A DNA stretch of 24,327 bases from a virus, in IMG/VR virus record IMGVR_UViG_3300033144_003482, positions 1 through 24,327 of that record. One strand, given 5' to 3'. The notes under the pieces are model-generated. The model searched no databases and was not told the DNA's origin. It worked only from the letters and a program-made list of their open reading frames with translations. How positions within the stretch are numbered: position 1 is the first letter of the stretch; every line of letters begins with the position of its first letter. Made by a program: the position numbers and the translations under genes. Positions 3,527 to 24,306 of this stretch are shown here, piece by piece.

Positions 3527-4355
3527 AATCTATTGTGCAGATAATCTCAAGATTATGCGAGAGATGAAAGCTGGGTCTATTGACCTAGTTTACATAGATC
3601 CGCCCTTCAACACAAAAAAGATAAGAAAGTATACTAAGCTAAAAACTAACCAGAGTATTCACGGGGATCGTATTGGATTTGGTGGGAGGCGCTACCAAAC
3701 AGAAAAGAATGGCACACTAGCTTATGCTGATTCATACGCAGATTATCTCAAGTTCCTGGAACCGAGATTAACAAACGCCTATATACTCCTGAAGAAAACT
3801 GGTTCACTATTTTTTCATATTGATTATCGTGAGGCACACTACTGCAAGGTTTTGCTAGATGGCATTTTTGGGCGGGAGTGTTTTCAAAATGAAATCATTT
3901 GGGCGTACGATTACGGCGGGCGATCCAAAAAGCGTTGGTCAGCTAAGCACGACAGTATTTTTTGGTATACCAAAGATCCAAAAAAGTATACATTCAACTA
4001 TGACGTGATGGATCGTATTCCATATATGGCTCCTGGGCTGGTGACTAAAGAAAAGGCTGCTCGCGGCAAAACTCCTACTGATGTTTGGTGGCACACTATT
4101 GTACCAACGAATGGGAAAGAGCGTACCGGATACCCTACACAAAAGCCCCTTGGAGTTCTTAAACGTATCGTTAGCGTCCATTCTAAGCCCGGAGACACCA
4201 TCCTTGACTTCTTTGCTGGTGCAGGTACCACTGGGGAAGCTGCAGCGCTCCTGGGACGTAAATTCATTTTGATAGATAATAACAAAGATGCTGTAAAAAT
4301 ATCTGCGAAGCGACTAAAACAATACAAACCTAAGTGTATTGGCTTCAAACACTAA
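3483..4355 (+). CDS. Beta-class DNA adenine-N6 (or cytosine-N4) methyltransferase
   Basis: 290 residues from ATG 3483. The catalytic motif DPPF is at 39-42 and the S-adenosylmethionine site FFAGAGTTGEAA at about 243-254, an order (catalytic motif first) that defines the beta class of amino-methyltransferases (N6_N4_Mtase family, as in CcrM and RsrI). DPPF favours adenine-N6. The enzyme would methylate a short DNA site, protecting phage DNA from host restriction or altering regulation. No restriction endonuclease lies beside it, so it looks like an orphan enzyme. The longer frame back to 3393 would overlap the previous gene by 134 bases; ATG 3483 has AGGGA upstream and gives a normal N-terminus (SGTNKIYCADNLKIMREM), hence my choice. 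The recognition site cannot be read from the sequence. Confidence 0.85.
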   Translation: MNPPTKKRKPSGTNKIYCADNLKIMREMKAGSIDLVYIDPPFNTKKIRKYTKLKTNQSIHGDRIGFGGRRYQTEKNGTLAYADSYADYLKFLEPRLTNAYILLKKTGSLFFHIDYREAHYCKVLLDGIFGRECFQNEIIWAYDYGGRSKKRWSAKHDSIFWYTKDPKKYTFNYDVMDRIPYMAPGLVTKEKAARGKTPTDVWWHTIVPTNGKERTGYPTQKPLGVLKRIVSVHSKPGDTILDFFAGAGTTGEAAALLGRKFILIDNNKDAVKISAKRLKQYKPKCIGFKH

Positions 4356-4380
4356 TTAAATACTATAAACGGTCATGTTA

Positions 4381-4386
4381 TATAAT
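4381..4386 (+). promoter_or_regulatory. Possible -10 box before the membrane gene cluster
   Basis: TATAAT stands 38 bases before ATG 4424 in the gap after the methyltransferase gene. No convincing -35 is visible. It fits a fresh promoter for the holin-like gene and the genes after it. Confidence 0.4.
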
Positions 4387-4402
4387 CTTCAAGTCATTAT
4401 TA

Positions 4403-4420
4403 AATAACTTGGAGGTTATT
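4403..4420 (+). promoter_or_regulatory. Small hairpin presenting the ribosome binding site
   Basis: AATAAC (4403-4408) and GTTATT (4415-4420) form a 6-bp stem whose loop carries TTGGAG, four bases before ATG 4424. The Shine-Dalgarno sequence lies in or at the edge of the loop, so it could be presented to or hidden from the ribosome. The stem is weak (one G-C pair). Confidence 0.35.
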
Positions 4421-4423
4421 CCA

Positions 4424-4864
4424 ATGAACAAGCTGTTTGATCTTCTTGGTGGTCGGAAGTATTTCCTGGCGATTATATTTTACGTGCTAGTCACAATTGG
4501 GTTTTTCATTACCTGGGTTTCGCCTACAAGTTGGGTGCAGGCCCTTGAGTGGTGTTTAGCTATCTACTTAGGTGCTAATGCGGTTAAGTCTATACCAGAC
4601 GCAATGGCTAGGAATGGTGACACCAACGGAGTCAATAAGTTTTTTGCATTCTTCGGCGGTAGAAAAATGTTTTTGGCCCTGTTGTTTGTGCTTACGATTA
4701 CAGTTGCGTTCTTTATTCCAAAAGGCGAAGAGGGTAATTATCTACCGGCTGCTACATGGATTGATGGGCTAAAGTGGTGTCTGATTATTTATCTTGGTGC
4801 CAACGCTGTAGAAGCTGTCCCTCATGCCCTTATGCGCAAAGCGAATGGTAAGAAGGAAGAATAG
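4424..4864 (+). CDS. Small membrane protein with internal duplication, holin candidate
   Basis: 146 residues from ATG 4424 (GGAG upstream; the longer frame to 4334 runs into the methyltransferase gene and lacks a ribosome site). It is two copies of one unit: GGRKYFL then EWCLAIYLGANAVKSIP in the first half (residues 9-58), and GGRKMFL then KWCLIIYLGANAVEAVP in the second (78-133). Each copy has two hydrophobic helices, so the protein has four likely membrane segments and a short charged C-terminus. Size, hydrophobicity and position before spanin-like genes suggest a holin, but no holin family is recognised and the endolysin gene lies 10 kb away. An unrelated inner-membrane role is possible. 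The duplication is directly visible. Confidence 0.6.
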   Translation: MNKLFDLLGGRKYFLAIIFYVLVTIGFFITWVSPTSWVQALEWCLAIYLGANAVKSIPDAMARNGDTNGVNKFFAFFGGRKMFLALLFVLTITVAFFIPKGEEGNYLPAATWIDGLKWCLIIYLGANAVEAVPHALMRKANGKKEE

Positions 4865-4878
4865 CTACGAGGTAATCT

Positions 4879-5388
4879 ATGAAACGCATAACTGTGCAGG
4901 GGTATGCACCAGAGCCACGTACAACTCAGGTTGCTGTAGACCAGCCATTTCCAGACGATCCATTTCCAGGGGAAGAATATAATCTTGCGGAGTCAAATCC
5001 TGAAGCTATCCCACCCGATGATATAGGGCGCTTACGCGATGATTGGATCACTGCTCGTAACAACGGCAATCCGCTTTACGTGGTAGGTGAAGACGGGCGT
5101 ATGTTTTATGTTGCAGTAGGCGGCGATGGGAAAGCTATTACGTTGCATTCGGTAGTTCCTCGCTATGAAGTTCAAGAGGGTACCATTACGGAATACGCAG
5201 GGCCAGATGCTTTCTTTACACTGGAGGAACAGTTAGGACGTTATCAGCCTGTCCCAATGCAGCAGATTGTGCAATCCAATATTGAAGGCCATGTAGCCAC
5301 GGTTTCTAACCCTATTTGGTTCAAAGCTGTAAAGCGCTTGGTACAACAGCATATGGGCCAAGAAGTATATAATCCATATAAAAAATGA
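4879..5388 (+). CDS. Hypothetical protein
   Basis: 169 residues, not recognised. A Pro/Asp-rich first 50 residues (QPFPDDPFPGEEYN) are probably extended or disordered. The middle (NPLYVVGEDGRMFYVAVGGD) looks like a beta-strand hairpin, followed by mixed helix and strand. There is no signal peptide or membrane segment. GAGGTAA stands seven bases before the start, and the gene follows the holin-like gene by 14 bases, so it belongs to the same operon. A soluble or virion role is as likely as a lysis role. Confidence 0.6.
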   Translation: MKRITVQGYAPEPRTTQVAVDQPFPDDPFPGEEYNLAESNPEAIPPDDIGRLRDDWITARNNGNPLYVVGEDGRMFYVAVGGDGKAITLHSVVPRYEVQEGTITEYAGPDAFFTLEEQLGRYQPVPMQQIVQSNIEGHVATVSNPIWFKAVKRLVQQHMGQEVYNPYKK

Positions 5389-6187: not shown

Positions 6188-6745
6188 ATGTATATCTACC
6201 AAAAAAGATCGAAAAATAGACAGGTGTTGTCAGGCAGAGGAAAGGTATGCCCTAGCTGTAAATCATCTAAGATCGTTTTGACTGAGCCTGGAAAAGACAG
6301 GACGACGTTTACTTGCCAGAAGTGTGGTTCCATAAGCACATTTACTAATAAGCCTGATTTAAGTAAACCTAAGAAGCAGGCTACAAAGCCGGTTTCAGCA
6401 ATTACCCTTAGAGATAGAACTGTAAAAACTGAAGATAGTCGTCCGACTAAGGTGTTGGCGAATGAGTCCATGCGCTCTATCTTGGAAGTTATTCGTAAGG
6501 CTATGAAAGATACTATGGTTGTAAGCTTTGATTATATAGCTGCTGATGACAAAAAGTCTTCGAGAACGGTAGAGCCATATAAAATTACAAGCAAAAAAGG
6601 AGAAATGATTTTATTTGCACACGATCTAGAGGGTAGCAGTATTCGGATATTTAAAATAAGGAATATGTCATATGTAGAACCGCAGCCATACGCATATGAG
6701 CCACGATATGATATCGAAGATAAACTGAAGGAAGATGATGGCTAA
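6188..6745 (+). CDS. Zinc-ribbon protein with WYL-like domain
   Basis: 185 residues. Four cysteines at 21, 24, 43 and 46 (CPSC...CQKC) make a zinc ribbon. After a basic linker, residues about 100-165 match the WYL fold: SFDYIAADDKKSSRTVEPYK, a strand MILFAHDLEG in the WYL position, then RIFKIRNM, the usual Arg/Phe/Ile-rich end. WYL domains are SH3-like ligand sensors, mostly in bacterial transcription regulators and in defence proteins, where they bind nucleic acid or nucleotides. Here there is no helix-turn-helix; the ribbon may replace it. The gene overlaps the terminase start by eight bases, which points to a link with DNA packaging or with late-gene control. The ribosome site is poor (GATGAAG). 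The ribbon is certain; the WYL call is by pattern. Confidence 0.65.
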   Translation: MYIYQKRSKNRQVLSGRGKVCPSCKSSKIVLTEPGKDRTTFTCQKCGSISTFTNKPDLSKPKKQATKPVSAITLRDRTVKTEDSRPTKVLANESMRSILEVIRKAMKDTMVVSFDYIAADDKKSSRTVEPYKITSKKGEMILFAHDLEGSSIRIFKIRNMSYVEPQPYAYEPRYDIEDKLKEDDG

Positions 6746-8720
6746 CGATCTTGGGTCACAGAAGTCCGGTGCAAAAGCCGACGATAAGAAAAACAATATT
6801 TTTGACGGTATTTCTGGATTACTAGACGGACATATTCAGGTAAAACCACGAAGCAAGGGTAGGGTGCAGTTAGAGCTTGCACCAAATCCTGTAGAGTTTA
6901 TTGAAGCAACTAGGTTCCTAGATGGGCCAAAATTACACTATCCACAATACGCAGTCGCCCGCGATTTTTTTGAACTGCTTTGCCCTAAATGCAACGATAT
7001 AGATGACATTATTGCAAATATAGATCCTAAGATGGTGGAGGCCACTATTAAAGTTGCAAAAGAGGAGAGAGCTAAGCAAGTGTGTTTTAGATACAATGTT
7101 TGCCCAAAATGTGGGTTCAATAAGATGCAGAACTCGCGGGTGTTCAATAATTTTAATGAGCTAATTGGGGTTGTAGGTATGCGTGGAGGAAAGTCAGTAC
7201 TTGTAGCATGTATGAGTGCTGCTATAATTCATGAGTTATTATGTGTAGATGGGCTACAAAAACGATTAGGATTGGTAAAGAGTCAAGAAATCGATGGGGC
7301 ATTTGTAGCAGCTTCTGGAGAGCAGGCAAGTGAGACAATCTATGGACATTTCAGAGGATTTTATGATAATTCTCCATGGTTTCAAAATTACAGAAGGGCG
7401 CTATTAGATTTAGAGATTTTAGATAGCACGCTTAGACGGGGTGATCTTTACTGGCAAACTGAGAAATCTATCCACTTTAAAGAAAAACACATTCGAATCA
7501 AATCTCTAACTTCAAATTCGGGTTCAATTGCTGGAAAGACTAGAATTTTCGCGGTCATAGATGAGCTTAGTCGTATGGACGCTGGCGATAGTAAACGTAG
7601 TGCGACAGAAGTATACCGTGTACTGAAACGTAGTTTGATTACTATCAAGGCATCTGTGGAGCGTTTACGTAGGCAAGGAATTTACAGTGTACCTGATGCT
7701 CGTATGTTTTGTATTTCATCCCCGATGTTTGAGGATGATAAGTCGATGCTGCTTTTGAAGCAGGCCAAGAACTCAGATAAGATATTTGCGTTTCATCGGA
7801 CTACTTGGGAATTCAACCCAGATATTACCAAAGAAGATTTAGCCGATGAGTACGCTACTGATCCGCTTGGTGCTGAACGCGACTATGGGGCAAACCCTCC
7901 AGGCGCAGAAAACCCACTGATTTTAAACACAGCCATTATAGAAATATGTGTGGATAAATACCGAGCATCAAATTTTCTGGTTCGCGAAGTATTTTTCGAT
8001 GAAGTCTTGGGGGATTTTAGGTTTAGTTATGTGAAGCCCGAAATTCTGGATTTTCAATACAAGCACTTATGCGAATACGTAATACACTGTGACCCTGGAC
8101 AGCGGCAAGATAGCTTTTGTTTAGCGCTTGGACATTTAGATGACGATACAGTTATTATTGATGGTGCTATTGAATGCCGTCCAATCCATAAAAATAACAA
8201 ACAAGGAATGCCTCCACGGGAAGTTTACTTTCCTGCTATGACTGATATTATTTTCGCATTGAATAGAAAGCTATCGATACGTTATGTGTCGTATGATCGA
8301 TGGAACTCTACTGAGCAGATTCATAAATTACGAACGCATAGAATCCTAGCCTTTCAAAAGAATCTAAGTAGAGATGATCATATGCGCTTTGTAAATTCGA
8401 TGACTGGTCATAAGCTAAGTTTCCCTGCAAAAGAAAATGATTTTATTGACCCGTCTATTGCTCGGATGATGCCATGCTCAAAAGCCCTCTGGGAATTAAA
8501 ACGTCTCAATGACGATGGTGTAAAAGTTGATCATCCTCCTGGTGGTTCAAGTGATATGGTTCAATGTTATGTTGGTGTGCACAGATTGCTACTGCATCCT
8601 GAAGAGGTTATTTCTATACCTGAACTTAAAAAAGAGCAAAGGAAACAACGTGTTAGGGGTGGTATGGGTAGAAAAATTGGGAGAGTAGTTAACTTACCTC
8701 CAAAAGGATCAAGACGTTAG
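6738..8720 (+). CDS. terL: Terminase large subunit
   Basis: 660 residues from ATG 6738, which is five bases after AGGA; ATG 6735 is possible but sits only two bases from it. The ATPase part has a Walker A-like GMRGGKS at about 147-153, Walker B VIDEL at about 273-277 with its catalytic Glu, and a CISSPM coupling segment near 325. The nuclease part has HCDPGQRQDSF (Asp about 452), SYDRWNS (Asp about 520) and SSDMVQ (Asp about 606), the acidic metal-binding set of RNase H-like headful and cos nucleases. Before Walker A two CPKC pairs (about 82-85 and 122-125) form a zinc ribbon, an unusual insertion. Terminase docks on the portal and pumps and cuts DNA. No small subunit is recognised nearby; the zinc-ribbon/WYL gene overlaps its start. 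Confidence 0.95.
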   Translation: MANDLGSQKSGAKADDKKNNIFDGISGLLDGHIQVKPRSKGRVQLELAPNPVEFIEATRFLDGPKLHYPQYAVARDFFELLCPKCNDIDDIIANIDPKMVEATIKVAKEERAKQVCFRYNVCPKCGFNKMQNSRVFNNFNELIGVVGMRGGKSVLVACMSAAIIHELLCVDGLQKRLGLVKSQEIDGAFVAASGEQASETIYGHFRGFYDNSPWFQNYRRALLDLEILDSTLRRGDLYWQTEKSIHFKEKHIRIKSLTSNSGSIAGKTRIFAVIDELSRMDAGDSKRSATEVYRVLKRSLITIKASVERLRRQGIYSVPDARMFCISSPMFEDDKSMLLLKQAKNSDKIFAFHRTTWEFNPDITKEDLADEYATDPLGAERDYGANPPGAENPLILNTAIIEICVDKYRASNFLVREVFFDEVLGDFRFSYVKPEILDFQYKHLCEYVIHCDPGQRQDSFCLALGHLDDDTVIIDGAIECRPIHKNNKQGMPPREVYFPAMTDIIFALNRKLSIRYVSYDRWNSTEQIHKLRTHRILAFQKNLSRDDHMRFVNSMTGHKLSFPAKENDFIDPSIARMMPCSKALWELKRLNDDGVKVDHPPGGSSDMVQCYVGVHRLLLHPEEVISIPELKKEQRKQRVRGGMGRKIGRVVNLPPKGSRR

Positions 8721-9384: not shown

Positions 9385-9405
9385 CTCCTGGGAGTGGTGA
9401 CCACT
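9384..9405 (+). promoter_or_regulatory. Two overlapping palindromes across the ribosome site
   Basis: ACTCC-TG-GGAGT (9384-9395) and AGTGGT-G-ACCACT (9393-9405) share the AGT at 9393-9395 and end right at ATG 9406. GGGAG of the likely ribosome site lies in the first. Both hairpins cannot form at once, and both begin with the last bases of the upstream gene. Loops of 1-2 bases would be tight in RNA, so a DNA-binding role is an alternative. Confidence 0.35.
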
Positions 9406-11049
9406 ATGCGCCAGTTAGAAATACTTAAATCTCATTTTGCATTTTTAGCAAGTTCGCAAGGCTATATTAGCGAAGATGATTATCATGTAGCCTGTAATGG
9501 CGTTACAGATGATACGATTCTAGATGATTTGTCTAATTGGCTTATAGCAAAAGAATATAAGCTCGTAAAAGGTATTGGACCACAATACCAACAAGAGATA
9601 CAAGAGAAGTTGAAAAATCCTAATGTAGAAGATGTTAAAGATACTAAACACCGTACACACACAAACAAGGATAAGTTGCAAAAATCAAAGAAGAAAAATA
9701 TCCAAGAGAACGTAATTGCGTCGTTCCATCTAAATAAAGTCATTGACGATATGCAAGAGTTTGAAGATGAGTTTCTCCCTGCTTGGAAAAAGTGGAAAGC
9801 ATCTTCAAAAGTTTATAAGGAATTTCTTGCATCGCTAGGCATTACGGCACAAGACTTTGGGAGCTTTGAGCAAGCACAGAGGAATGTCCAGCAGATATTA
9901 GAATCTTCCGGTACCGAAATTCCAGAAGACGCATATATTCAGCATAACGCGCTACAAAACGAATTTGCTAAGATAGATCCACATTCTCAACTCCCAATTA
10001 TCGAACGTATAGAAAAAGCAGTCTTACAGATGTTTGATCCTGGAACAATACGAGAGGTATTTGACGAGCTATTTAAAGGGATTCAAAGCGGGTTTGAACG
10101 CGTGCCACTCGGTGAAGGCCAAAGCCCCACAACTCCAGAGGAACCTATGCCATCTGGTACCCGAATGATCGAATTTTCAGTAGAACCGGAGGATTCAGGG
10201 TTAGAGACTGCCTCTGTAAGAGCAAAAGCAGCAAAAGCAGTTAAAGTAGCGACTACTGTAGCCAGGATTGGCTATTCAGATAAAGAGCGTATGAATGTTA
10301 AGTTTGATAATGACATTAGCTTTTCAGCATATATAGCTGAAACTCCTATGCAGAAAGCCGCTGGCTTAGAAGTATTTGATTCGTTGGGTACTTCTGAGGG
10401 TTTGTTTTTCCCGTTTGAGGATGAGGGCAGCGTGACTTTTCATATGGGGTCTGTTGCATTCCCAATTGATATTGTATTTTTGATGGATTCGCCTAATGGA
10501 CTTGAGGTTGGAAAAATCGTTGCAAATGTACAGCCTGGTTCACCAGATTGGTGGTCTTACCATAAAACAAGTGCCGTATTAGAGGTAGTTGGTGGTAGCT
10601 GTAAGCAATCAAATATAAAAATAGGATCAACGTGTAGATGGTTTAAACGTGTAGAAGCTCAAGGGTATCCATCAGAATACAATTTGAGCCTGCCTGATAG
10701 GGCAGGTGAGTATGACCTATTTGCTTTGTTTACACTATTGAGCGAATACCACGGTGGTCAAGGCGATCCTGTCTATGCAGTACAGAGCCGTGAAAGCAAG
10801 GATAACATTTCTTTGGGTGAACTGGATGCAGTCGAAAGTCTTCTTGAAGATATCGATAATGGTAAATACATGCCAGGATATCCTCACGGGCAATTAGCAC
10901 CGGGTGACAGCCCAATGGGTTTACAAGAATCAGAAGAATATGAAGCAGAGCAGGGCGCAGCAGCAAATGATATGAGTATTGCACAGTCGTGGCTTCCTGT
11001 GATTAGAGAAGTGATCAGTGAAAATTCTCCTGTAGAAGAGGAATTCTAA
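9406..11049 (+). CDS. Large head-operon protein with embedded DUF192 domain
   Basis: 547 residues from ATG 9406; GTG 9394 and GTG 9397 are possible starts. The first 90 residues are helical with a basic linker (HRTHTNKDKLQKSKKKN), and 90-230 are helical with coiled-coil character. Residues about 296-412 match DUF192: SAYIAETPMQKAAGL, GLFFPFEDEGSVTFHMGSVA, FPIDIVFL, then AVLEVVGGSC and an IKIGS end. DUF192 proteins are small, often exported, beta-rich and of unknown function in bacteria and archaea; their usual W-M-K-N is F-H-M-G here. The C-terminal 130 residues are acidic and Gly/Pro-rich. The gene shares the start-stop overlap TAATG with the next one. Between terminase and portal, it is probably a virion or head-assembly protein, but its job is unknown. 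Confidence 0.65.
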   Translation: MRQLEILKSHFAFLASSQGYISEDDYHVACNGVTDDTILDDLSNWLIAKEYKLVKGIGPQYQQEIQEKLKNPNVEDVKDTKHRTHTNKDKLQKSKKKNIQENVIASFHLNKVIDDMQEFEDEFLPAWKKWKASSKVYKEFLASLGITAQDFGSFEQAQRNVQQILESSGTEIPEDAYIQHNALQNEFAKIDPHSQLPIIERIEKAVLQMFDPGTIREVFDELFKGIQSGFERVPLGEGQSPTTPEEPMPSGTRMIEFSVEPEDSGLETASVRAKAAKAVKVATTVARIGYSDKERMNVKFDNDISFSAYIAETPMQKAAGLEVFDSLGTSEGLFFPFEDEGSVTFHMGSVAFPIDIVFLMDSPNGLEVGKIVANVQPGSPDWWSYHKTSAVLEVVGGSCKQSNIKIGSTCRWFKRVEAQGYPSEYNLSLPDRAGEYDLFALFTLLSEYHGGQGDPVYAVQSRESKDNISLGELDAVESLLEDIDNGKYMPGYPHGQLAPGDSPMGLQESEEYEAEQGAAANDMSIAQSWLPVIREVISENSPVEEEF

Positions 11050-12463: not shown

Positions 12464-12665
12464 TAGACCACAAGTTTATGTTTACCCAGATCTTACTAAT
12501 GGGATAGCGTTTGAGCCACCATGCGAAATTGTAGATCAAGTCAAATTTGTGGACGGTTTATGCCCATTTTCGGGTCATTCAGATTGCCGAGATTGTATAT
12601 CAAATGAATTTGATGCAGCGTGTATCTGGGCGCTATGTAACGCAGATATGTTTGGATTAACATAA
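12453..12665 (+). CDS. Small Cys-rich protein, probable zinc binder
   Basis: 70 residues from ATG 12453, overlapping the previous gene by 11 bases; the longer frame to 12387 lies wholly inside that gene and adds no fold. Six cysteines (24, 37, 45, 48, 57, 62) and a His (42), in CPFSGHSDCRDCIS and CIWALC, suggest a small metal-bound or disulphide fold. The ribosome site is weak (AGAAG). Its stop overlaps the portal ATG (TAATG), which suggests coupled translation with the portal. Function unknown. Confidence 0.55.
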   Translation: MLHNRPQVYVYPDLTNGIAFEPPCEIVDQVKFVDGLCPFSGHSDCRDCISNEFDAACIWALCNADMFGLT

Positions 12666-14485
12666 TGGCTAAAAAGAAAACAACAAAGAAAAAAGCATCT
12701 AGAACTAAAAAGGCTGCACGTCCTATTGTGCATAATCCTAATGTTATAAACACGAAGGCACGTGGGCCTATTCGTAGAACAGCTCAAACATACGGTGGTG
12801 CTGGTGGAGCAGGTGCTGCTGCTGGGCGTGGAAGTAGTCAATCATTAGCACAGTCTCCCCTTTATTATGATTATAGATGGTCCACACCAGATAAGTTTTA
12901 TTACCCAAAAAATAGAGTAGTAGCTAATTCTATTTGGAGGGAAGTGTATAAAAGAGATCCGGCGATAGCTGCTGCAACTGATATGTATGCAGAATTGCCA
13001 TGGTCACAATTTGACCTTATGGGTATTGACGATAAGCATATTCGGCATGTTTACGAGGATATGTTTAACGCCCTGAATCTAGTGCCTAAACTTCCGTCGT
13101 TTACACGCGATTATATGATAACGGGAGAACTTGTTCTTCATAACATCTTTAATTCTACCAAAGGTATTTGGGACCGGATAATTCCGCATAATCCCGATTA
13201 CGTCAAAGTTGATGGTATTGGTTTAGCGATTGAGCAACCGCTGCTTTCATTGCTTCCAACTCCAGAAATCAAGCGATTGATTAATTCGACTGACCCCAGG
13301 ATCAGACGGCTTCAAAAGGTTATCCCTAAAGAGATTATAAACGCATTTAGGATGAATAAAGAAGTTCCGCTTGATTCGCTAAACACTACATACTTACCAC
13401 GTTTGAACTCTTCTACAGATATACGTGGAACATCAATATACACTAGGTTGTTTCGTATTATTATGTATGAAGACTTTATTGTTAACGCATCGCTTGCTGT
13501 AGCCCAAAGAAATGCTGCACCACTTAGAATTTTCAAACTAGGAGATCCAAACTCTGGTTGGTTGCCTGATGAAGAAGACGAGGCTGCATTTGCTGAAATG
13601 TTAAGTATGGCAGAGGCTGATCCACTAGCTGCTATTATTATGCATCACAATGTTACCTGCGAGCTAGTAGGCGTTTCTGATCGTGTCTTACTAATTTCCC
13701 GCGAGTGGGATTTTATAGAACGTGTAAAGTTACTTGGTTTGGGAGTAGCTAAGTCCTTCTTAGTGGGCGAGACATCGTTTGCTGCTGCTGTTGCTGGGCT
13801 GCAAACCCTAATGGAACGACTATCAACGCTACGGGTACGGTTTGAAGACGACTGGATTACTAAAAAGATATGTGAACCTATCGCTGAAATTCACGAGTTT
13901 TATAGACGCCCACGATCAGAAATTGAACACAGGATTCGTATACAGCGTCCATTAGAAGAGCGTGAGTTAATACTTCCCAAAATCAAATGGCATAAAAGTC
14001 TAGAGCCAACACAGGATGTTGCGATTCTAAATGTATGGCGTGATCTAAAAGAACGCGGTATTTTATCTGAACGGACTTACGCAGCTGGCTCAAGTGTAGA
14101 TATTGATTCTGAACGTAAGAATATTGCAGAAGAACGCACGTATAAAAAGGAACATCCTGAAATTTATGGGGTTCAGCAGCCACAACAGGCTCCAGCTAAG
14201 CCAGGTGCTCCTGGTAAGCCAGGTGCCCCACCAGGGATGCCTCCTCCTGTTGCTCCTGCGGCAAAGCAATCGAAGTATGGTGCACATAATCCTTATATGG
14301 CTAATAGTCGCGCAGAGCTGGAAACTAGATTAGATGAGCTGTCTGATACAGAACACAAAGTAGATGTACGGGACGTTTTAGAGGTCATGGATGATCTAGA
14401 TTTTGAAGAAGGTGTAAATCGTCGTGAAGATTTACTGCTTGATCAGGTACCTGTGGCAACCAGCGACCTGCTTTCTGGAAAATAG
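12665..14485 (+). CDS. Portal protein
   Basis: 606 residues. A Lys-rich then Gly/Ala-rich N-terminus (about 60 residues) leads to a portal-type core: DPAIAAATDMYAELPW (about 96-111), RDYMITGELVLH, RGTSIYTRLFRIIMYEDFI (about 253-272), RNAAPLRIFKLG, and the helical LGLGVAKSFLVGETSFAAAV followed by LQTLMERL, which corresponds to the stem and clip helices lining the channel. The C-terminus has a Pro/Gly/Ala stretch (APAKPGAPGKPGAP) then an acidic end. Twelve copies would form the ring at one head vertex through which terminase packages DNA. Size, order after terminase and pattern agree, but this is a divergent portal called by overall resemblance. It begins on the stop of the Cys-rich mini-gene. 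Confidence 0.85.
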   Translation: MAKKKTTKKKASRTKKAARPIVHNPNVINTKARGPIRRTAQTYGGAGGAGAAAGRGSSQSLAQSPLYYDYRWSTPDKFYYPKNRVVANSIWREVYKRDPAIAAATDMYAELPWSQFDLMGIDDKHIRHVYEDMFNALNLVPKLPSFTRDYMITGELVLHNIFNSTKGIWDRIIPHNPDYVKVDGIGLAIEQPLLSLLPTPEIKRLINSTDPRIRRLQKVIPKEIINAFRMNKEVPLDSLNTTYLPRLNSSTDIRGTSIYTRLFRIIMYEDFIVNASLAVAQRNAAPLRIFKLGDPNSGWLPDEEDEAAFAEMLSMAEADPLAAIIMHHNVTCELVGVSDRVLLISREWDFIERVKLLGLGVAKSFLVGETSFAAAVAGLQTLMERLSTLRVRFEDDWITKKICEPIAEIHEFYRRPRSEIEHRIRIQRPLEERELILPKIKWHKSLEPTQDVAILNVWRDLKERGILSERTYAAGSSVDIDSERKNIAEERTYKKEHPEIYGVQQPQQAPAKPGAPGKPGAPPGMPPPVAPAAKQSKYGAHNPYMANSRAELETRLDELSDTEHKVDVRDVLEVMDDLDFEEGVNRREDLLLDQVPVATSDLLSGK

Positions 14486-16692: not shown

Positions 16693-17583
16693 ATGCCGTT
16701 TTACAAAACCGCCCAGGCTCCTATTGTTAGTGTCTATGAGTCTTCTGGAAAATTCAGTAAACGTGCAGCACAAAACGAGGACATGACTAAGCAGGAGGAT
16801 GATGCTGTACAGACTGCATTAAACCTTTTGTCAAAAGATGTGCTCAAGGCAGTAGCAAAAGTTTATAACATATCTGATGATATCAATGATTACATCTTTC
16901 CAGTCCCCCGTGCGGTAACGGCTGATGAGCCTAATAACAATGGTGACAATTTCATGCATGAAGAGCTTACACGCTTTTCGGCTAACCACCGTTGTTTAGT
17001 TTTTCAGACATTCCGTAATGACCCACTTCATATAGAACACGCTGCAGAAGACCCTAAAGCTGCGCGTGGATATATACCTGATGCTCACTATGTTATGGCT
17101 AACGACAATGATAAGCATGTGCTTACCGTAGTGGCTATGGATACAACTAAAGATGCTCCATTGGCAGAAGGTATGCTAAGTGGGGAAATCGATATGTTCT
17201 CAATGGGATGTATTTGTGATCAAGTTAGGTGCAGCTACAGTAAATGCGATTCTCCAGTAGCTAATTCTGACAGAGATCTATGCGATCATTTGAAGTGGTA
17301 TAAGATGTCTACCCTTGATGGTGAGCTTATCTATGAAGATTGCTTGGGTGTAGAATATCAGGAGTTATCGGTAGTTGGAAATCCTGCAGATCCGAAAGCT
17401 ACAACACAAGCATTACTAAAATATGCTACGCGAAAAGCCGCACGTGGGCAATCTCGTGCAGCATTTAGTTTACTTTCTAATTTAATCAGTGAAACTGATC
17501 AACGTGAAGTAGCTCGATTTTTCAGTACAAATGCGGGTAAGCTGCCGGATGCTGTGCTTAGATTAGCTGATAAACTTCTATAA
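16693..17583 (+). CDS. Head maturation (prohead) protease
   Basis: 296 residues. The core follows the HK97/herpes-type assembly protease layout: NNNGDNFMHEEL (about 81-92); LHIEH (112-116) giving the likely catalytic His; GEIDMFSMGC (164-173) with a likely nucleophile Ser 170; and YQELSVVGNPADPKA (222-236), the E-x-S-x-V...PA-x-x-A end typical of the family. A Cys/His cluster follows the Ser (173, 175, 180, 185, 197, His 199), probably zinc-bound, as I recall from related phage head proteases. The C-terminal 60 residues look like a helical scaffold-type tail. The enzyme would cleave scaffold and capsid protein inside the procapsid. It sits just before the scaffold-like gene, as expected. The assignment of the Ser and His is from pattern. 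Confidence 0.8.
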   Translation: MPFYKTAQAPIVSVYESSGKFSKRAAQNEDMTKQEDDAVQTALNLLSKDVLKAVAKVYNISDDINDYIFPVPRAVTADEPNNNGDNFMHEELTRFSANHRCLVFQTFRNDPLHIEHAAEDPKAARGYIPDAHYVMANDNDKHVLTVVAMDTTKDAPLAEGMLSGEIDMFSMGCICDQVRCSYSKCDSPVANSDRDLCDHLKWYKMSTLDGELIYEDCLGVEYQELSVVGNPADPKATTQALLKYATRKAARGQSRAAFSLLSNLISETDQREVARFFSTNAGKLPDAVLRLADKLL

Positions 17584-20263: not shown

Positions 20264-21400
20264 ATGAAGTTTAATCCATACACCAGTAAAAAGGCTTCCG
20301 GTGTCCAAACGATAGATCGTAAAACCGGAGAAGAGTTCAACCCTATGAACATCGGTAGAGTAGGCAAGTCTGGTAATATTCAGGTGTCTGCTTCTGAACG
20401 CATGTTCAACAACCAGGGTGAAATTAACGCCACTACTTCTGGAGATGTGCTTGGCAAGATTAAACATCTGTTGGACGGTATGGCCGATGGTACATATGAT
20501 GTTGAGCGTACCGCATCGTATGCTGGCGAAGGAATGAGCGGAGCAGAAAGTGACGCTATACTCCGTGAAGCTTTCTCCGATCCATCCAGTGAGGGATTCC
20601 GCCAGGTTGGTCAAGGCCTATTGAATCCAATCAAAGAGGTAATTGACTATGAGGGCCTAGCCCGCAAAGTCTTCGCGCCCCGTACAGTGAAAGCTGGCGA
20701 GGTAGTTCGTTACGACAAGGACGTATATATCCGGGGTTGGGTAATTGCTGAAGATGGGCAAACTCCGCAGTCCGTTGTTGAAGGTCGTTACATCTATCCG
20801 CCTGAGTTCGAAATTACGGCTTATCCATCTATAGAAATCAAAGACAAGTATCGTGCGCAGTATGATATTCTTGCTCGTGTACAAGACCGTGCACGTATGA
20901 GCATAGAGTATCAGGAAGATTTAGCCCTTATTAATCTGCTACAAGCTGGTGCAAATGCAACCAATACGACCACGTTCTTTGCTACATTGAACTTGGCAGC
21001 ATTGGAAGGTATTCGTTATCAGATTGAGCGGCACCGTCTGATCTGTGATAAGTTCATCATCCATCGTCAGGAAGTATCTGACTTGGTTAACACCCTATCG
21101 CAGCAAGTTGACCCTGTAACCCAGCGTGAGTTGATCATGGCCGGTTATATTGGTACCGTGTTGAACGCTATGATTATAACAACTGCTGGTACGCAGACGT
21201 TTGAAATTCTGCAGCCTGGTGAAGTTGTAGCCGTTACAGCCCCTGAGTATCTGGGTGGTATGCCTGTTCGTGTTGAGTTGTTCAGCGAGCCGGTAAATGA
21301 GTTCATGGAAGGTCGCCCACGCCAGGGTTGGTTCTGGTACGAGTTGATTTCCCAGGTGCTCGTGAATCCCGCTGGTGTTGCTCAAGGCACCAAGGTTTAA
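20264..21400 (+). CDS. Major capsid protein, HK97 fold
   Basis: 378 residues. The first 100 residues (to about SDAILREAFSDPSSEG) are a helical, charged arm that may be cut by the head protease. The core has the HK97 layout: GLARKVFAPRTVKAGEVVRY (about 131-150) as E-loop and P-domain start, the YPPEFEITAYPSIEIKDKYR and EDLALINLLQAG spine-helix segments, CDKFIIHRQEVSDLVNTL in the A-domain, and PVRVELFSEPVN near the end. Codons are richer in GC than in neighbours, and AAGGAGG is a near-perfect ribosome site, both fitting very high expression. A stem-loop precedes it and a strong hairpin follows. Hundreds of copies build the icosahedral shell. The call rests on fold pattern, size and gene order. 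Confidence 0.85.
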   Translation: MKFNPYTSKKASGVQTIDRKTGEEFNPMNIGRVGKSGNIQVSASERMFNNQGEINATTSGDVLGKIKHLLDGMADGTYDVERTASYAGEGMSGAESDAILREAFSDPSSEGFRQVGQGLLNPIKEVIDYEGLARKVFAPRTVKAGEVVRYDKDVYIRGWVIAEDGQTPQSVVEGRYIYPPEFEITAYPSIEIKDKYRAQYDILARVQDRARMSIEYQEDLALINLLQAGANATNTTTFFATLNLAALEGIRYQIERHRLICDKFIIHRQEVSDLVNTLSQQVDPVTQRELIMAGYIGTVLNAMIITTAGTQTFEILQPGEVVAVTAPEYLGGMPVRVELFSEPVNEFMEGRPRQGWFWYELISQVLVNPAGVAQGTKV

Positions 21401-22848: not shown

Positions 22849-23577
22849 ATGCCATTGCTTACCGCTGAAAAGCATCAATGGACTAAGCAGCCACCCTATA
22901 ATTTTTATCATTTTCCTGATGAACATCGTGCTGGCTGGAAAGTTTTCTGGGAAGAAATGGATGGCGACTTAGACAAGATACTAGCGTTTGCAAAGAAGGC
23001 GGATATTGAGTGTCCAAACGAATGGTACGAAAGTCTTCACCGTTTCTTATTTCTTACGTTTGCTGGCAATGTAAAGCTGCTTAAATGCGGAGCAGATACA
23101 TCGTTTGGTACGTTTATTCAAAAAGTAAGAGATAACCATTTCAATAATCCTAAGAATAAACAATGGTATACAGTTAGAGGAATCACTCAAAATAACTTTG
23201 TTGCGATGCTGGAGCGTGCTGCAGAAATCAAGGATATACGCCAGGTAGTTGCGTTCGTAAACGCTCGTGTAAAGGACTTAGGATTTTATCTTTATAGTGA
23301 GTTTTTGCTATCAAAAACTAAAGGTAAGAGCGAAATAAAGAGTGTTGCGTCTGACCTAAATAAGAAAGCGTATAAACTAGAAAGTGAAGCTATGGGGCAT
23401 TCGCCTCTTGCTATATTGGAGTCTGGAAATATCATACGGCATAGTTTATTCCCAGAAGACGAATTTGAAGTTACAGAAGTCGTAAAAGATGACAATGATA
23501 AAATCAACCTAATTGTTACAAAAGACACAAATGGTCACGTAGCTTTTATTGTAGATGTTTGGAACGTGCAACGGTAG
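22849..23577 (+). CDS. Hypothetical protein
   Basis: 242 residues, not recognised. Many aromatics in the first 70 residues (QPPYNFYHFPDEHRAGWKVF, ECPNEWYESLHRFLFLTFAG), then helices and, after about 200, a beta-rich end (FEVTEVVKDD, KINLIVTKDTNGHVAFIVDV). No membrane helix or signal. GAGGAG precedes the start, and a terminator-like hairpin separates it from the gene before it. It starts a run of small genes to the window's end. Confidence 0.55.
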   Translation: MPLLTAEKHQWTKQPPYNFYHFPDEHRAGWKVFWEEMDGDLDKILAFAKKADIECPNEWYESLHRFLFLTFAGNVKLLKCGADTSFGTFIQKVRDNHFNNPKNKQWYTVRGITQNNFVAMLERAAEIKDIRQVVAFVNARVKDLGFYLYSEFLLSKTKGKSEIKSVASDLNKKAYKLESEAMGHSPLAILESGNIIRHSLFPEDEFEVTEVVKDDNDKINLIVTKDTNGHVAFIVDVWNVQR

Positions 23578-23840: not shown

Positions 23841-24306
23841 ATGGCCAAAGAAGTAAAAGCATACAGTCTTGAAAACGTTATTGAAATGCTGGGGCCGCTA
23901 CAAGAAAAAACAGACGATATAGCAAAACGCTTGGAAGTTATTTATGGTTTAGGGCCTGCATTGGAGGAGCGAGAGCTAGGAGAACTGGGTGAAATACTAG
24001 AATCAGTGGATGATGTAATTGATGATTTTCATTATACGCTTTCCAGGTATATGGAAGGTACAGGTATTTGATGATTTTCATTATACGCTTTCCAGGTATA
24101 TGGAAGGTACAGGTATTACTGTTGAACCAGAAGAACCAGCATCAATAGAACAAGAGTTATCTGGTATAGAACAATTCCTAGAAGACAAATTTGAATGGGA
24201 AGAAGAGGAAGAGGAGGAAGAGGAAGAAGAGATAGATGAAGCAGAGAAGCAGTTACTAGATATAGAAAAACAATATGAAGAATACTACAAAGATCTTTTA
24301 TCATAG
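23841..24306 (+). pseudogene. Acidic protein gene split by a 49-bp tandem duplication
   Basis: ATG 23841 (after GGAGGG) reads 76 codons to TGA 24069-24071. A second frame, +1 relative to the first, continues from the duplicated segment to TAG 24304-24306 without a good start. If one copy of the 49-bp repeat is removed the two parts join into one frame of 138 residues: MAKEVKAYSLENVIEMLGPL, helices, DDFHYTLSRYMEGTGI, TVEPEEPASIEQELSG, a poly-Glu stretch and EKQYEEYYKDLLS. The intact gene would code an acidic, mostly helical protein of unknown role. The duplication therefore truncates it or, if the ribosome shifts +1 at ATT TGA, makes a longer protein with the 16-residue block twice. An assembly error is also possible. 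Confidence 0.65.
24019..24117 (+). repeat. 49-bp tandem duplication
   Basis: Bases 24020-24068 and 24069-24117 are identical, 49 bases each, starting TGATGATTTTCATTATACGC. Because 49 is not a multiple of three, the second copy is read in another frame. The match is perfect, so the event is recent or artificial. Confidence 0.9.

Follow-up and report, generated by a model that had tools for sequence, protein, structure and literature searches.

The window analysed here is the entire linear record of a metagenomic virus, 24,327 bases long, across which the structural genes of a tailed phage lie in their familiar order:

6735-8720, terminase large subunit
12665-14485, portal
16693-17583, head maturation protease
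20264-21400, major head protein

Small genes without assigned function lie beyond the major head protein, and the last gene of the window is the interrupted gene considered here. Some other features of the record are worth recording. At 2108-2197, between the leftward and rightward gene blocks, a 25-base unit is present in about 2.9 tandem copies. The 551-aa phage protein encoded at 9394-11049 amid the structural genes contains a DUF192 domain (PF02643, residues 311-415). The 242-aa protein at 22849-23577 is shorter at its C-terminus than in L004 and some other relatives, where about 70 further residues follow in the same frame; the short form also occurs in L002.

A 49-base duplication near the end of the record

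The interrupted gene comprises the following elements, which overlap in part:

23841-24071, plus strand, upstream part of the gene, the conserved N-terminal part of the family (66-78% identity with residues 1-76 of six homologues)
24019-24067, plus strand, first 49-bp unit, exactly identical to the second
24068-24116, plus strand, second 49-bp unit, which shifts the frame by +1 and is missing from all six homologues
24061-24306, plus strand, downstream part of the gene, the acidic C-terminal part, which lies one frame on and closes at TAG 24306 (74% identity over 46 residues to L002)

The first-pass annotation had described two identical, adjoining 49-base copies, and both a letter-for-letter comparison and Tandem Repeats Finder (period 49, 2.1 copies, 98%, over 24015-24117) bear this out: 24019-24067 equals 24068-24116, head to tail. 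At offset 49 the window matches itself exactly over 50 bases from 24019, so that the periodic stretch is 24019-24117, T24117 being a single ambiguous base that lies past the two units and still fits the period. No longer exact self-match occurs in the window at offsets of 20-300. The duplication is far beyond chance, as the longest run in each of 20 first-order Markov simulations over the same offsets reached only 10-14 bases. The runner-up runs in the window itself (36, 31 and 27 bases) all fall within stretches listed by Tandem Repeats Finder as short-period repeats. The flanks share 1 bp of exact junction homology, or four of five positions when GTAAT and GTATT are compared, and the join contains neither Ns nor mismatches. 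A DNA hairpin within the unit is unremarkable (z -1.8). The repeat starts 309 bases from the end of the contig, and about 2.5% of contig positions lie equally near either end.

The effect on the reading frame is also as first described. From ATG 23841 the frame is open for 76 aa and is closed at the new junction by TGA 24069-24071, with a second TGA directly behind it; the rest of the gene lies in the next frame, which is open as far as TAG 24306. Recomputation with one unit removed restores a single frame of 138 residues from ATG 23841 to TAG 24306. The upstream and downstream parts both align to a single ORF in relatives, the latter to its C-terminal portion. The downstream part shows 70% identity to L002 over residues 68-148 of the stop-to-stop frame and, by this comparison, is still conserved. 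Two ATG codons could serve for restarting translation, neither with a well-placed ribosome-binding site: ATG 24022 is without a Shine-Dalgarno sequence, and the AGG before ATG 24100 is too close, at only 3 nt. A caution for annotation is that what looks like a 76-aa gene with a separate ORF behind it should be entered as one interrupted gene.

The product itself gives few clues to its function. Searches of PHROGs and Pfam yielded no convincing family, the matches being weak and inconsistent between members. An AlphaFold2 model of an intact homologue consists mostly of long helices at low confidence (mean pLDDT 59, pTM 0.28), from which the protein is probably helical, and its C-terminal tail is acidic. 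The position of the gene would fit a part in assembling the head or neck, but this is only a guess.

The gene in related phages

Relatives were gathered by searches with the two upstream neighbour genes and with the family of the studied gene; a search with the major capsid protein among genome contigs returned no relative. The gene occupies the same place in six related phage contigs (L002, L003, L004, L005, L006 and L010; L009, L008 and L007 are the same contigs as L003, L004 and L006, respectively), where the next gene begins ...SFTDFDV. This is the comparison with homologous phages that had been proposed earlier, and its outcome is uniform: each of the six has the gene as an unbroken ORF, 124-149 aa long, in which the DDFHYxL..YMxGxGI block or a variant of it occurs once. 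Because all six gene-bearing relatives are single-copy and intact, the two-unit state is, on this comparison, private to the present contig and disruptive. No near-identical strain is present among the viral contigs searched, since an exact 28-mer of the unit found no match there; blastn against annotated phages likewise returned none.

The frame break stands alone among the genes compared. Every stop-to-stop ORF of 60 codons or more in four relatives was scanned: 89 matched the plus strand of the window, and the only ones that matched in two frames were the four homologues of the studied gene; the other two-frame cases were antisense frames. Over the first 76 codons, comparison of the window with four relatives gives dN of 0.13-0.24 against dS of 0.8-3.2 (dS being partly saturated), so that the gene has been subject to purifying selection.

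In the wider group the gene is probably accessory and its loss probably tolerated, as a family profile search found no match in five more distant related records, which are fragments even though the neighbouring genes are present. In L011, L013 and L015 the SFTDFDV-type gene begins shortly past the upstream 75-aa gene. L012 is a separate case, in which an ORF for a LAGLIDADG_3/Hom_end homing endonuclease (about 4240-5105) lies between the 75-aa and SFTDFDV-type genes, in the slot where the six relatives carry the studied gene.

Origin of the second unit

We slightly favour, at a little better than an even chance, a recent 49-bp tandem duplication in the DNA of the sampled phage, private to it, that knocked out an accessory gene of the structural region. 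Copies without any difference indicate that the duplication is recent. Flanks that share 1 bp (four of five if imperfect matches are counted) would suggest replication slippage or template switching of a nearly homology-free type. Such an event would have destroyed the frame of the gene for the protein of about 138 aa; the product would be truncated at the junction after 76 aa, with the remainder lacking a good restart site. This account agrees with the six intact single-unit homologues, with the dN and dS values over the first 76 codons, with the restriction of frame splitting to this one gene among the 89 plus-strand matches, and with the probable tolerance of loss suggested by the five distant records. 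An ordinary short read is long enough to cover 98 bp, so the double unit could be spanned by one read, and the contig is free of Ns there. Against it stand the nearness of the repeat to the contig end, the rarity of exact duplications with almost no junction homology, the constraint on the gene where it is present, which makes a null allele somewhat unexpected, and the fragmentary state of the five records that gave no match.

In a rival account the phage is single-copy and the second unit arose in assembly, either because two pieces with a 49-base overlap were put end to end without being merged or because a chimeric read was followed near the contig end. This is a serious contender, if somewhat short of an even chance. 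The perfection of the copy, the single base of junction homology, the start of the repeat only 309 bases short of where a linear metagenomic record ends, the single unit in all six gene-bearing relatives and the purifying selection on the gene all speak for it. It fits less well with a join free of Ns and mismatches and with an assembly that is otherwise clean, no other frame break being found in the compared genes. A length of 49 is not known as an overlap arising from the usual k-mer settings of assemblers. The first-pass annotation had offered a new loss-of-function lesion and an artefact of assembly among its options, and both survive side by side; very probably one or the other of them is correct.

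The remaining options fare far worse. An on-off switch of the accessory gene could in principle operate among the phages if the 49-bp unit were reversibly added and removed: slippage or recombination can undo a perfect tandem repeat, and, 49 not being divisible by 3, each gain or loss shifts the frame. None of the six relatives has more than one unit, however, no strain-level relative with a different copy number was found, and the event would not be frequent from a single-copy start; such phase variation, suggested earlier, finds no support and is very improbable. Were the duplication reversible in populations, it would constitute a simple phage switch, though nothing here points there. Still less probable is a programmed +1 frameshift at ATT TGA, which would yield a protein in which a block of about 16 residues occurs twice. 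Shifting by +1 at the junction would bring the frame back, and an AGG lies just upstream, but the site was created by the duplication and occurs in none of the relatives, which have no stop to bypass. Re-pairing from AUU to UUU in the P-site is poor; prfB uses an AGGGGG element and a CUU P-site codon, and the site has neither that element at the proper spacing nor that codon, which leaves the earlier suggestion of a prfB-like shift unsupported. Two genuine adjacent or overlapping genes, the last of the alternatives raised at the outset, can be set aside almost entirely. Both frames are open and ATG 24022 or ATG 24100 could act as a second start, but neither is preceded by a suitably placed Shine-Dalgarno sequence, and the two parts match one continuous ORF in every gene-bearing relative, which contradicts separate genes.

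Comparison with known systems

Whether lesion or assembly error, the event concerns one uncharacterised accessory phage gene and carries little weight alone. Among the titles and abstracts listed in literature searches there was no directly comparable phage case, and the nearest parallels come from more general phenomena. Contingency loci that vary in phase through tandem repeats show the same dependence of the frame on the number of units, but here there are only two, long units and no variation between relatives. With prfB the locus shares a zero-frame UGA and a continuation in the +1 frame; it differs in that the shift site is not conserved, a proper Shine-Dalgarno-like stimulator is missing and the P-site codon is the wrong one. 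Unmerged contig overlaps likewise leave an exact copy near a contig end that is absent from relatives, whereas here there are no Ns and 49 is no usual overlap length. Classic duplications mediated by direct repeats have more junction homology than the 1 bp (four of five, imperfectly) seen here, where the duplication is known from an assembled contig. Spontaneous short tandem duplications formed by slipped mispairing or template switching show the same kind of exact head-to-tail copy, of a length that is not a multiple of 3, disrupting a gene and private to one lineage.
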